From Streptomyces altiplanensis (GTDB lineage Bacteria; Actinomycetota; Actinomycetes; Streptomycetales; Streptomycetaceae): a stretch of DNA of 64,000 nucleotides. Each line of letters opens with the position of its first letter. Within the stretch, counting starts at the first letter, position 1. Made by a program: the position numbers and the translations under genes. This document shows positions 5,240 through 7,846 of this stretch, piece by piece. The notes beneath the pieces were generated by a model that was given only the letters and a program-made list of their open reading frames with translations, made no database searches and was not told the DNA's origin. Location: the NCBI GenBank assembly GCA_003719395.1, contig RHMC01000010.1:1-64000 (forward strand). The letters run 5' to 3'.

Positions 5240-6400
5240 TCAGATAGCGCCCAGGTCGGCCGCCACTGCGGCCAGGATCGAAGCAAGTTGGAGGCGTCCT
5301 TCTCGGGGGAGGCCACGCGCAAGGTCAGCGACCAGCGCCTCCTTGCTCCCGCTCTGCTCGACATAGCGATGGAGGAATCGGCTTCGCTGGTCTTCATCCA
5401 GAGTGGCCAGGACGAGGTCCATGACGGCGTTTCCGTCGTGCCACGGCACAGGAGCCACCGGCCGAACTTCCACCGGGCGTCCGGACGGGGCCTCGTCGGT
5501 GATAACGGCGTTATCAGTCGGTGGGTTCTCGGTGGGCTGGTCCTGTGTCTTGGAGGTGATAACGGCGTTATCAGTCTTCGACGGGGCCGCGGTGGTGTCC
5601 TCTGGGTATGCAGCTAGCGGGTTGATAACGGCGCTATCAGTGGCAGGGGCCGAGGGCTGAGTCGGCACGGCGCTCCGACGTCGCGGTTGGGAGGCGGCGG
5701 CCCGTTCGTCGGCTGTGGTCCGCTGCTCTTCGGGCGTGAGTTTGGCCAGGCCCCGCACGTGCTCTACCTTGCGTCGGCCAGCTTCCAGGTCTGCCTGGAG
5801 GTCGGGTGCGAGCGCGAGGAGCGAGAGGCGCTGGGAGATGTATGGCTGTGTCACTCCCAGCCGCTTGGCTGCCTTGTGCTGCGAGCCGTAGAGCTTGACA
5901 AGCTGGTTGAGGGCATGGGCCTCTTCCAAGTCGGTCAGGTTCTCGCGCTGGGCGTTGGCGACGAAGGCAGCTTCGAGCAGCTTCTCGTCGGTGGCCGCCA
6001 GGGCGTCGTTGACGGTGATCCGGACGGTCTCGATGCCCGCTTCGCGGGCGGCGGCGAGGCGGCGGTGCCCGTCGATGACGACGTACTGGGCACCGGCGGC
6101 GAGTTCGTCTTCGCGTCCGGGGCGTTCCTTCAAGTAGGCCTCGACGGTGGCCACTGTGATCGCTTGGACGAGTCCGATCTCGGCGAGGCTGGAGGACAGG
6201 CCCTCGATGTCTCCGAGGGTGTCGCGGGGGTTGTCGGGGTTCGGACTGATGCGGTCAAGGCTGAGTGCGGTGACGGTCTCGTCTTGGGCTTCGCCTGTAG
6301 CGGCTGCGATGAGTTGGCCGCGGGTACTGCGGGCGAGGGCCGCACGGCCGAAGGAGCTCGAGCTCCCGACACGGTCTGCGGCGGACTGGCGGGTACTCAC
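5240..6400 (-). CDS. parB: ParB centromere-binding partition protein with parS-like sites in its own gene
   Basis: A 386-residue ParB. After ~45 basic residues comes the ParB/Srx nuclease-like domain (ISPNPDNPRD, VVIDGHRRLAAAREAG, NAQRENLTDLEEAHAL), then the helix-turn-helix (KAAKRLGVTQPYISQRLSLL). A proline-rich linker and C-terminal dimer domain (MDLVLATLDEDQRSRFLHRY) follow. The linker contains three copies of a T-D-N/S-A-V-I motif because the DNA there carries three palindromes matching those upstream of parA. The GTG start at 6400 overlaps the parA stop (GTGA), implying translational coupling. ParB should load on the palindromes and stimulate ParA. Confidence 0.92.
   Translation of the reverse strand: MSTRQSAADRVGSSSSFGRAALARSTRGQLIAAATGEAQDETVTALSLDRISPNPDNPRDTLGDIEGLSSSLAEIGLVQAITVATVEAYLKERPGREDELAAGAQYVVIDGHRRLAAAREAGIETVRITVNDALAATDEKLLEAAFVANAQRENLTDLEEAHALNQLVKLYGSQHKAAKRLGVTQPYISQRLSLLALAPDLQADLEAGRRKVEHVRGLAKLTPEEQRTTADERAAASQPRRRSAVPTQPSAPATDSAVINPLAAYPEDTTAAPSKTDNAVITSKTQDQPTENPPTDNAVITDEAPSGRPVEVRPVAPVPWHDGNAVMDLVLATLDEDQRSRFLHRYVEQSGSKEALVADLARGLPREGRLQLASILAAVAADLGAI
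5500..5516. promoter_or_regulatory. parS-like palindrome 1, inside parB
   Basis: TGATAACGGCGTTATCA, perfectly palindromic around one central base. Encodes TDNAVIT in the parB frame. Confidence 0.75.
5557..5573. promoter_or_regulatory. parS-like palindrome 2, inside parB
   Basis: Identical 17-mer to the site at 5500, 57 bp away and in the same parB codon phase (TDNAVIT again). Confidence 0.75.
5623..5639. promoter_or_regulatory. parS-like palindrome 3, inside parB, one mismatch
   Basis: TGATAACGGCGCTATCA, the same 17-mer with one T-to-C change in the right arm. Encodes TDSAVIN. Confidence 0.65.
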
Positions 6401-7602
6401 GTGATCTCCCGAACGATCTTGCGCATGCTCATGGCCTGGTCGCACTCCGGTGCGTAGGAGAGGAGCGGCATCTTGTTTCTGACGGCCTCGCGCTGTTCCT
6501 TGAGACGAGCGACCTTCGCAAGGACCCTGGGGTCGCCGAGGGATTCCCACTCCCTAAGGGAGGAGGTGACGACGTAGCCGTCGCGGGCGTCGTACATGTT
6601 GACGACGAGGCCGAGGTACTCGACGTCGATCCGCCAGTCCGTCTTGCCGGACTCGATCTGCTCTATCAGCAACTCGAAGGCATCCGCTGACGAGTCTTCC
6701 GCCTGCACGATGATCATCACTCCGGACTGGTCCTTGGCTTCGCCCTCGCGGCGCCGCCCGTAGTAGATCGCGGCATCCATGCCCACGCCGAGGCTGGGAG
6801 GGGAGTCGACGACGATGACGTCGTAGTCCTTCTCCAGGGGCTCGAGAGCGCGCTCCAGAGTGGCCTGCCGGTTACGGTCCATCGCGATCATGATGTCGAG
6901 AAGGAACGCGTCCGGACAGGACGGCAGGACGTGCAGCCGGTCTCCGTACCGCTCGTCGTCGACGACGACTACGAGGTCCCTAATCGAGGAGTCCTTGATC
7001 TGCCCGGCCATGAACTTGGCCAGGCTGGGCCCCTTCGCGGGAAGGCTCTGCAGGCCGAGCTGCTTCGTGAGGTGTCCCTGCGGGTCGTAGTCGACGAGCA
7101 GGACACGCAGCCCCCGACCTCGGAACTCCTCCAGGAGTGCCTCGGTGTTTTTGGCAACGGTTACGTAGGACTCGCCTTCCGCCAAGGCCTCGCCGACGCC
7201 GGCTGAGATGGCCGTCTTCCCCACGCCGCCCTTCTGGTTGCACACCACGATGCGGCGGGGGAGCCCTGTGACGGGTCTGTACTTGGGGGAGGGATGCGTC
7301 TGGAGCCATAGGGCGACCGACTGCGCGAGTCCTTGGACGAAGGGGATGCCGCGCTCGCCGCACGTCGCCTTTAGGTCCTCCCACTGGCCTGGGAACAGCC
7401 AGGTCGAGAACGTCACGGATCCTGCCGTGTCGATGGTTTCGTGCGCGATTGGCGAGGCACGCCAGGCTTCGACGCCCTCGGTGACGGCGTCCTGGATGTC
7501 CACACCGAGTTCGGCTGCTCTTACCTTGAGGTCCTGGCGCAGCTCGACTGGCAACTTGGAGACAACTTTCTCTCTGTCTCCGGAGGGGCTTTGGGTGACC
7601 AT
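6397..7602 (-). CDS. parA: ParA partition ATPase
   Basis: A 401-residue Walker-type ParA. The deviant Walker A CNQKGGVGKTA lies near residue 120; Walker A' follows as VDYDPQGHLTKQLG and Walker B as DVIVVDSPPSLG. The N-terminal ~110 residues are a longer extension than in chromosomal Soj and could carry DNA-binding or autoregulatory activity; its start (VSKLPVELRQDLKVRAAELG) resembles a ribbon-helix-helix segment. ATG at 7602 with AAGGTG upstream. First gene of parAB. Two parS-like palindromes lie 100-245 bp upstream, so ParA or ParB probably represses its own promoter. Acts on the nucleoid to segregate plasmid copies. Confidence 0.92.
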   Translation of the reverse strand: MVTQSPSGDREKVVSKLPVELRQDLKVRAAELGVDIQDAVTEGVEAWRASPIAHETIDTAGSVTFSTWLFPGQWEDLKATCGERGIPFVQGLAQSVALWLQTHPSPKYRPVTGLPRRIVVCNQKGGVGKTAISAGVGEALAEGESYVTVAKNTEALLEEFRGRGLRVLLVDYDPQGHLTKQLGLQSLPAKGPSLAKFMAGQIKDSSIRDLVVVVDDERYGDRLHVLPSCPDAFLLDIMIAMDRNRQATLERALEPLEKDYDVIVVDSPPSLGVGMDAAIYYGRRREGEAKDQSGVMIIVQAEDSSADAFELLIEQIESGKTDWRIDVEYLGLVVNMYDARDGYVVTSSLREWESLGDPRVLAKVARLKEQREAVRNKMPLLSYAPECDQAMSMRKIVREIT

Positions 7603-7699: not shown

Positions 7700-7716
7700 C
7701 GATAACGGCGTTATCG
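7700..7716. promoter_or_regulatory. parS-like palindrome 4, upstream of parA
   Basis: CGATAACGGCGTTATCG: same 15-bp core as the parB sites with C/G outer pair, about 100 bp upstream of the parA start. Confidence 0.75.
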
Positions 7717-7821: not shown

Positions 7822-7846
7822 CCGCTGATAACGGCGTTATCAGCGG
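7822..7846. promoter_or_regulatory. parS-like palindrome 5, upstream of parA, longest arms
   Basis: The same core extended to a perfect 25-bp palindrome around a single central base, about 230 bp upstream of parA. It is the best-conserved copy and a good candidate for the nucleating parS. The 7850-8085 stretch beyond it has no convincing gene. Confidence 0.78.

Follow-up and report, generated by a model that had tools for sequence, protein, structure and literature searches.

The palindromes at the parAB locus of the window, the 64 000-nucleotide stretch of Streptomyces altiplanensis DNA that was analysed, are very probably the parS sites of the ParB encoded there, as judged from related loci. 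Taken as a whole, it is considered likely that five parS sites serve a type-I ParABS system belonging to the plasmid itself, that three of these sites lie in the codons of the ParB linker, that they are read by the HTH domain and that reader and sites are inherited in linkage. Judging from the loci compared below, the in-gene arrangement is not unique to this plasmid. The coordinates of the features are given in Table 1.

Table 1. Features of the parAB locus, in positions of the window.
Feature	Position	Strand	Basis or remark
parB, 386 aa, GTG start	5240..6400	-	ORF; ParB_N + ParB-type HTH, linker, helical C-terminal end
Predicted disordered linker codons (aa 241–322), holding the in-gene sites	5435..5680	-	AlphaFold2
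In-gene parS-like palindrome, exact	5500..5516	.	Pattern search
In-gene parS-like palindrome, exact	5557..5573	.	Pattern search
In-gene palindrome, one mismatch, reads TDSAVI	5623..5639	.	Pattern search
HTH domain codons (aa 153–233)	5702..5944	-	HTH_ParB match 153–233
E213 codon	5762..5764	-	Tracks innermost half-site base; pairs with Caulobacter ParB G201
Q185 codon	5846..5848	-	Tracks outermost half-site base; pairs with Caulobacter ParB R173
parA, 401 aa, Walker-type ATPase	6397..7602	-	PF13614 + PF01656 (AAA_31/CbiA); translation
parS-like palindrome 5' of parA	7700..7716	.	Centre 106 bp before parA start codon
Longest copy, 25-bp palindrome, 5' of parA	7822..7846	.	Palindrome scan

The 17-bp palindrome TGATAACGGCGTTATCA occurs exactly at two places, both within the 3' part of parB; the third in-gene copy differs from it by one mismatch and is exact in the related plasmid copy L005. 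On translation the three copies read TDSAVI (residues 254–259), TDNAVI (276–281) and TDNAVI (295–300) in one common codon phase. The core recurs twice 5' of parA, as CGATAACGGCGTTATCG in the copy nearer to the gene and at 7826–7842 in the other, which has an arm of 12 and is the longest of the five. The 15-base form GATAACGGCGTTATC is exact at 5501–5515, 5558–5572, 7701–7715 and 7827–7841 and has one mismatch at 5624–5638. The initial annotation had described two exact copies and one one-mismatch copy in parB, sharing a codon phase and repeating TDN/SAVI, and the same core twice upstream of parA with its longest form there; all of this was recovered. Shuffled windows gave an expectation of 0.02 matches to the 17-base form with up to three mismatches, and ten were found, corresponding to five places read on both strands. 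The motif search beyond the locus that the annotation had proposed was performed with GATAACGNCGTTATC on the whole assembly of 7 922 561 bases, in which no place other than these five was found with zero or one mismatch; ten further places appeared at two mismatches.

In a tblastn search of plasmids at an E value of 1e-5, relatives came from 733 records, 500 of them from Streptomyces, and the best was a linear plasmid of 88.9 kb at 95% protein identity. Streptomyces plasmids are also matched by 24 kb elsewhere in the window (68% covered, at 89%, in the best case), and for these two reasons the window is most likely plasmid DNA. The parA gene lies directly upstream of parB, the start of which overlaps the parA stop by GTGA. 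Pfam families PF02195 (ParB_N) and PF17762 (HTH_ParB) and NCBIfam TIGR00180 matched ParB above their cut-offs; scans of ParA and ParB with PADLOC and NCBIfam otherwise added little. The locus thus has the composition of a type-I HTH-ParB ParABS system, namely a ParA-type Walker ATPase gene upstream, ParB_N and HTH domains and five repeated inverted-repeat sites. No KorB family was present among the Pfam matches of ParB up to E 0.1, and the sequence match to KorB (PDB entry 8qa8) is weak (E 3.8e-4). In the AlphaFold2 model residues 241–322 have no secondary structure, with pLDDT values of about 30–37 up to residue 320; the model is weak (three-row alignment, mean pLDDT 57) and was used only for this missing linker secondary structure. 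A promoter and terminator scan 5' of parA returned nothing and is uninformative, as the sigma-70 consensus used is ill-suited to Streptomyces.

For comparison, a family of 129 loci was assembled from 14 plasmid loci, 115 of 136 Streptomyces genome hits and the window, minus one duplicate (parB of L168, identical to L029), which was removed before counting. Genome hits were taken at E ≤ 1e-22 from 295 genomes in all, with the window excluded, and 21 were set aside by hand, mostly the weakest ones, along with a duplicate and some that had in-frame stops. A single-protein scan of the genome contigs yielded two relatives, L009 and L010, which stand outside the 129. Loci were scored for 14 half-sites within 1.2 kb of the operon; in 16 classified loci with no matched parA start, the start was taken as 1250 bp before parB. 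The class labels were drawn up after the palindromes had been viewed, and the class counts are therefore descriptive. The tests proper were a synonymous shuffle, a permutation of half-sites, prediction of held-out loci and a permutation of co-resident ParBs.

Throughout the family, recurrent odd-centred palindromes (arms of at least six) are found mostly in the last third of parB and beside the operon, with half-sites that vary by locus. One half-site class fits 119 of the 129 loci, 13 of the 14 scored half-sites occur, and none of the 119 classified loci holds two scored half-sites. Sites lie in the parB linker in 100 of the 119, upstream of parA in 78, downstream of parB in 43 and in the parA region in 20; a class site falls in the first 225 codons of parB in a single locus. 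The number of in-gene copies is one in 57 loci, two in 25, three in eight, four in eight, six in one and twelve in one. A perfect in-gene site is missing from 19 of the 119, which have sites outside parB instead, and in ten of the 129 loci no odd-centred site of the scored classes occurs; an in-gene site is thus dispensable for some members. The linker is the sole place of class sites in 23 of the 119 (16 with a matched parA) within the fetched stretch of about 5–9 kb; in L167 one class site lies farther away from the locus. The first in-gene site begins 67–283 bp after codon 213 (quartiles 109–172; 100 loci), and the upstream site nearest to parA has quartiles of 88–109 bp and a range of 48–995 bp (64 loci).

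Some linkers are regularly spaced. The twelve in-gene sites of L172 follow an exact 39-bp period, so that the protein repeat would be 13 residues, and a 60-bp in-gene spacing is seen in L169, L219 and L222. In the TTAACG-class loci L253, L177 and L207 up to nine more sites lie within 0.9 kb downstream of parB, some of them overlapping by a half-site as GTTAACGSCGTTAACGSCGTTAAC. Most TTAACG-class sites downstream of parB stand where the fetched stretch has no 60-codon open frame; three loci of the class have such a frame there, but in a different phase.

Sites inside the gene change in concert with those outside it. For each of the 71 loci with palindromes in both regions, the longest one of the linker was compared with the longest one within 1 kb 5' of parA, and the half-sites were identical in 48 (mean of 2000 permutations 11.0, highest 20); allowing one mismatch added no case. 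The 23 disagreeing pairs mostly include one member that is not of the form xGTxxx. Among them, L270 has an upstream CGTCGG palindrome with an arm of 6, and a possible exception is L210, of linker class CGTTAA, which has an upstream 25-bp odd-centred palindrome with half-site AGTAAG, 478 bp before parA, which is possibly the site of a different ParB. Linker and downstream half-sites were identical in 24 of 72 loci (permuted mean 5.0). As controls, the 5' part of parB agreed with the upstream region in 1 of 22 loci (mean 0.4) and parA agreed with it in 9 of 55 (mean 3.6, highest 8). The latter excess may be explained by the palindromic spelling of a DYDVI motif: in the ATTACG class this parA motif is spelled as the matching palindrome GATTACGACGTAATC in 11 of 33 loci versus 0 of 44 elsewhere (Fisher 2.9e-5, uncorrected for kinship). 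The loci concerned are L180, L182, L201, L204, L205, L230, L248, L250, L257, L258 and L261; in L230 parA has YYDVI, and the palindrome is TATTACGACGTAATA, matching its TATTACG sites.

Synonymous codons were shuffled within each gene part. For arms of at least 8, 102 palindromes were observed in the linker and 5.9 expected; the corresponding values were 9 and 4.1 for the first 225 parB codons and 16 and 12.5 for parA. For arms of at least 6 they were 210 and 41.7 for the linker, 34 and 44.4 for the 5' part of parB and 95 and 79.0 for parA. Most classes have one codon phase free of stops and of the rare TTA codon, and that phase is the one used. The CGTGAT (TATCACG) class has two free phases and uses both, reading YHAVI or YHGVI in four loci and LSRRD or VSRRD in nine. 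Because the in-gene excess stands over a synonymous null and one class occurs in two codon phases, the comparison argues that the DNA of the linker palindromes, not the peptide, is selected. That the same palindrome is read as such different peptides also indicates that the repeated linker peptide is largely a by-product. Common descent fixes the phase as well, since the two AAAAC classes have three free phases and use one; the phase found in the ATAACT class is barred for just one choice of central base. Within the trio of the window, L005 and L167, the sites are identical at 44–45 of 45 positions versus 169–204 of 220 in the remaining linker.

The half-site bases were then related to ParB residues in a covariation scan of the 119 loci, limited to alignment columns from residue 40 to residue 239 that were well filled. 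For the innermost base, 96% of the uncertainty is accounted for by residue 213 (next best column, 54%): an inner G of the right arm goes with K213 in 14 of 14 loci, an inner C with E, D or A in 102 of 103 and S in the other, and an inner A with S in two. Residue 185 explains the outermost base completely, with Q accompanying T (88 of 88, never otherwise), P, A, G or E accompanying A (26) and S accompanying G (5). In a HMMER alignment with Caulobacter ParB (PDB entry 6t1f) residues 185 and 213 pair with R173 and G201, gapless between; the R173/G201 numbering was taken from PMC7383237, and the column ranking preceded the look-up of both paper and alignment. In the accessible part of that paper, these positions are known specificity residues of ParB and Noc, where Q173 reads adenine 1 and R201 reads cytosine 6. 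Our plasmid family resembles the switch described there in that Q185 goes with A1 and K213 with C6, here from covariation only. It differs from the parS/NBS sites there (PMC7383237) in its 13-bp odd-centred site and in being a plasmid family found in nature, whose main set has 13 half-sites, and it adds further states to those given, E/D/A213 with G6 and S185 with C1.

A rule built on residues 185, 186, 190 and 213 fits 112 of the 119 training loci; of the seven misfits, six were left open and one (L182) was wrong. It was applied to 25 new loci from other genera of the family, one further Streptomyces, SAP1 and an S. anthocyanicus plasmid that is a relative of training locus L195. Complete predictions were obtained for 18 of the 25, and the predicted palindrome was present in 15. 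With four copies of one genome counted once, 12 of 15 proteins were predicted exactly, and ten of these have a copy within the reading frame of parB. GGTTAT, which occurs in no training locus, was among the half-sites predicted and then found; CGTGAA is also missing from the training loci but had been seen in L010. The failures were L295 and L300, which have no site, and L296, which has AGTTAT instead of GGTTAT. Among the seven incomplete predictions, two agree with a recurrent palindrome (L286 and L302), one disagrees (L293) and four loci have no such site. When 17 of the 21 set-aside hits were scanned, four gave complete predictions and all four were borne out; a further seven have recurrent even-centred palindromes in parB, L108 is a repeat of L237, and in five of the 17 no recurrent palindrome was found in parB. 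From these sequence comparisons, it appears that a ParB protein sequence can predict its own centromere across the family. The view of the initial annotation that the palindromes act as the parS of their own ParB is borne out to the extent that they differ among plasmids in step with the upstream copies and that residues which pair with known base-reading ones track their bases. Its further suggestion of a centromere inside the gene of its binding protein has a precedent in SCP1 and SCP2 of S. coelicolor; the part that coupled the linker peptide to partition needs changing, the repeated peptide being largely a by-product.

Kinship, which makes related loci dependent on one another, was examined using a tree built only from the N-domain (135 rows, the 119 loci and 16 held-out). 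This tree requires no fewer than 24 changes of half-site class and no fewer than nine of K/R213. Presence or absence of K/R213 matches that of inner G in every row but L296 (134 of 135), and Q185 matches outer T in all 135. Strongly supported branches give five independent pairs for residue 213, concordant in 4.9 on average, and three for residue 185, all concordant; with only five and three such pairs, a p of 0.05 is unreachable for kinship-independent pairs. The 15 closest pairs that differ in class include 13 that involve L273. This locus is 91% identical to L269 in the N-domain and 87% in the HTH, its sites have ACG changed to ACC and it has K213; the two pairs with L214 are 89–90% identical in the N-domain and 68–69% in the HTH. 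Exchange of the parB cassette may have taken place. In 11 genomes with several such ParBs, some on one contig, 0 of 15 co-resident pairs share a class (permuted mean 3.75, P 0.012).

The five palindromes would thus form the centromere of the plasmid's own type-I ParABS system, with three of them inside the codons of the disordered ParB linker. Each 13-bp core, ATAACG-S-CGTTAT, would be a pair of 6-bp half-sites flanking one central S and would be recognised by the HTH, with Q185 setting the outer A:T and E213 the inner G:C, as suggested by the covariation and by what has been tested at the homologous positions of ParB/Noc. The sites would serve for the loading of ParB dimers, which would then slide from them as CTP clamps, as reported for the two ParBs of SCP1; with loading and sliding from sites in the operon, the parAB operon itself is proposed to become the partition complex. 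In addition, the upstream site some 100 bp ahead of parA probably serves to repress the operon; the rather fixed distance of the upstream site from parA fits an operator and is no proof of one. Reader and site may be inherited and changed as one unit, since the first in-gene site follows so closely after codon 213. Pressure to differ from co-resident plasmids may have driven the specificity switches, a proposal supported by the fact that co-resident ParBs share no class. We infer ParB binding in this plasmid, the centromere role of the in-gene copies, the repression and linkage as the reason for the arrangement from sequence comparison. Somewhat better than evenly balanced is the broader reading that parB of Streptomycetaceae plasmids is a self-addressed cassette, with at least 15 half-sites, pressure from co-residents, four residues that predict the site and one segment that sets incompatibility. 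If so, a single open reading frame holds the specificity codons and the centromere within a few hundred bases, and altering one segment of that gene would be enough for a plasmid to switch incompatibility type.

Other explanations of the in-gene copies were considered. They might act mainly as operators or road-blocks, where bound ParB slows RNA polymerase and limits ParB, with the upstream copies alone forming the centromere; the location of the sites in the operon, the narrow distance of the upstream site from parA and the repression of transcription by KorB, a ParB (PMC11790492, accessible part), are in keeping with this. It is nevertheless thought improbable, given the loose position of the in-gene sites past codon 213 and their variation from one to twelve copies (100 loci). 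Moreover, where class sites are found in the linker only, the in-gene copies would be the centromere, unless sites lie farther off as in L167, and in SCP1 the in-gene sites are among the three identical parS bound in ChIP-seq (PMC13245405, accessible part). The regular spacings of L172, L169, L219 and L222 resemble duplications, and the copies could then persist in a disordered linker as the harmless product of neutral tandem duplication. In the one trio compared, however, the sites stay intact while the intervening linker drifts, and copies follow the class of their locus, which makes this quite unlikely.

Selection on the peptide, with TDNAVI-type repeats as a linker motif and the palindrome as a codon side effect, would accord with the single phase in which the three copies here spell TD(N/S)AVI and with the use of a single codon phase in 11 of the 12 classes that have sites inside parB, which together make up 87 of the 100 loci concerned. 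Against it, the excess is lost on synonymous shuffling, and one palindrome is read as YHAVI or LSRRD. The peptide also varies by class (DNAVI, VNAVN, QNPVL, DYGVI, ANAVS) while the DNA remains palindromic and equal to the upstream copy in 48 of 71, and the conserved parA motif of one class forms the site mostly by codon, not residue, changes; this explanation is given very little credence. Just as little is given to the idea that the palindromes belong to another factor or to a mobile repeat near par genes and have no link to ParB. Short palindromes are common targets of many regulators, but the bases here change together with residues of the ParB HTH, the rule has predictive value for loci that played no part in making it and the genome holds no further copies with up to one mismatch. 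The account preferred here remains that of parS sites belonging to the plasmid's own ParB.

Sites of other geometry were found on a wider scan. In an even-centred scan, run after the odd-centred one, L241 and L265, which are unscored for an odd-centred class, proved to have even-centred palindromes in parB, in four (CTTTACCGCGGTAAAG) and three (TGTTGTCCGCGGACAACA) copies, respectively. Kitasatospora L313 likewise has three even-centred in-parB copies of TGTTGTCCGCGGACAACA, and the set-aside hits L052, L053, L111, L112, L113, L148 and L305 have recurrent even-centred palindromes with copies in parB. As such sites occur in more distant parB genes, in-gene placement would outlive a change of site geometry. 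In single loci of Rhodococcus, Mycolicibacterium, Xylanimonas and Sphingobium, no recurrent palindrome was found in parB. The Pseudonocardia locus L312 (pBCI2-1) has thirteen odd-centred sites of the GTAAACGSCGTTTAC type around and beyond parAB and none in parB. In the linker of L024, another of the ten loci outside the scored classes, there are five near-sites, four of them the hybrid near-palindrome ATAACGACGTAAT and one more degenerate, with half-sites of two classes; its ParB residues predict ATAACG. Bacillus subtilis also has a parS inside spo0J, its ParB gene, but that site is chromosomal, single and canonical. In chromosomal Streptomyces parB a canonical in-frame parS was seen in six of seven loci (L055–L059 and L061), in one of the six with a mismatch. 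It reads VSRET or VSHET and lies N-terminally, after GLGRGLGALIP and ahead of the CTPase domain.

Plasmid partition centromeres are usually found singly, by ChIP or deletion. Most genes of this family carry their own site, which provides more than 100 protein–site pairs without experiment, and the residue-to-base code, which is testable, joins the ParB/Noc work to plasmid incompatibility. The family is also a system for asking why a centromere lies in a coding region (reader–site linkage, autoregulation or free linker space) and a possible source of orthogonal ParB–parS pairs for DNA labelling. In a literature search that covered titles and the openings of abstracts, neither a family-wide in-gene pattern nor a residue–site code was found. 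The phrase 'within the parB gene' in the accessible part of PMC12207404 concerns no parS. As far as was searched, the in-gene arrays, the family-wide co-diversification and the readable code are new; a single in-gene parS is already in print for parB1 and parB2 of SCP1 and for parT of SCP2.

Of the known systems, KorB of RK2, described in PMC11790492 (accessible part), is a ParB-family clamp that also represses, and its OB site is likewise an odd-centred palindrome, the printed OB oligonucleotide holding TTTTAGCGGCTAAAA. It silences other plasmid genes with KorA; the ParB studied here has no KorB family among its Pfam matches. The parT gene of SCP2 of S. coelicolor, as given in the accessible part of PMC12260392, resembles the present case as a Streptomyces plasmid gene with a parS, mapped by ChIP-seq, within the gene of its own binding protein; ParT, in contrast, has no CTPase domain, and its 18-bp inverted repeat has one mapped in-gene site. 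The closest likeness is to ParABS1 and ParABS2 of SCP1, also of S. coelicolor, which are type-I HTH ParB systems of a Streptomyces plasmid with parS both inside and outside parB (PMC13245405, accessible part, as for all that follows). There, ParB1 and ParB2, which are reported as CTP sliding clamps, each bind three identical inverted repeats around parAB in vivo, one of them in-gene, as determined using ChIP-seq and BLI. The in-gene site could be recoded with the protein unchanged; recoded parB1 complemented only partly, which according to its authors the missing site or the promoter used may explain. That part of the SCP1 work contains no survey of in-gene sites across plasmids and no residue–base link, and each SCP1 gene has one in-gene site, whereas there are three here and up to twelve in relatives.
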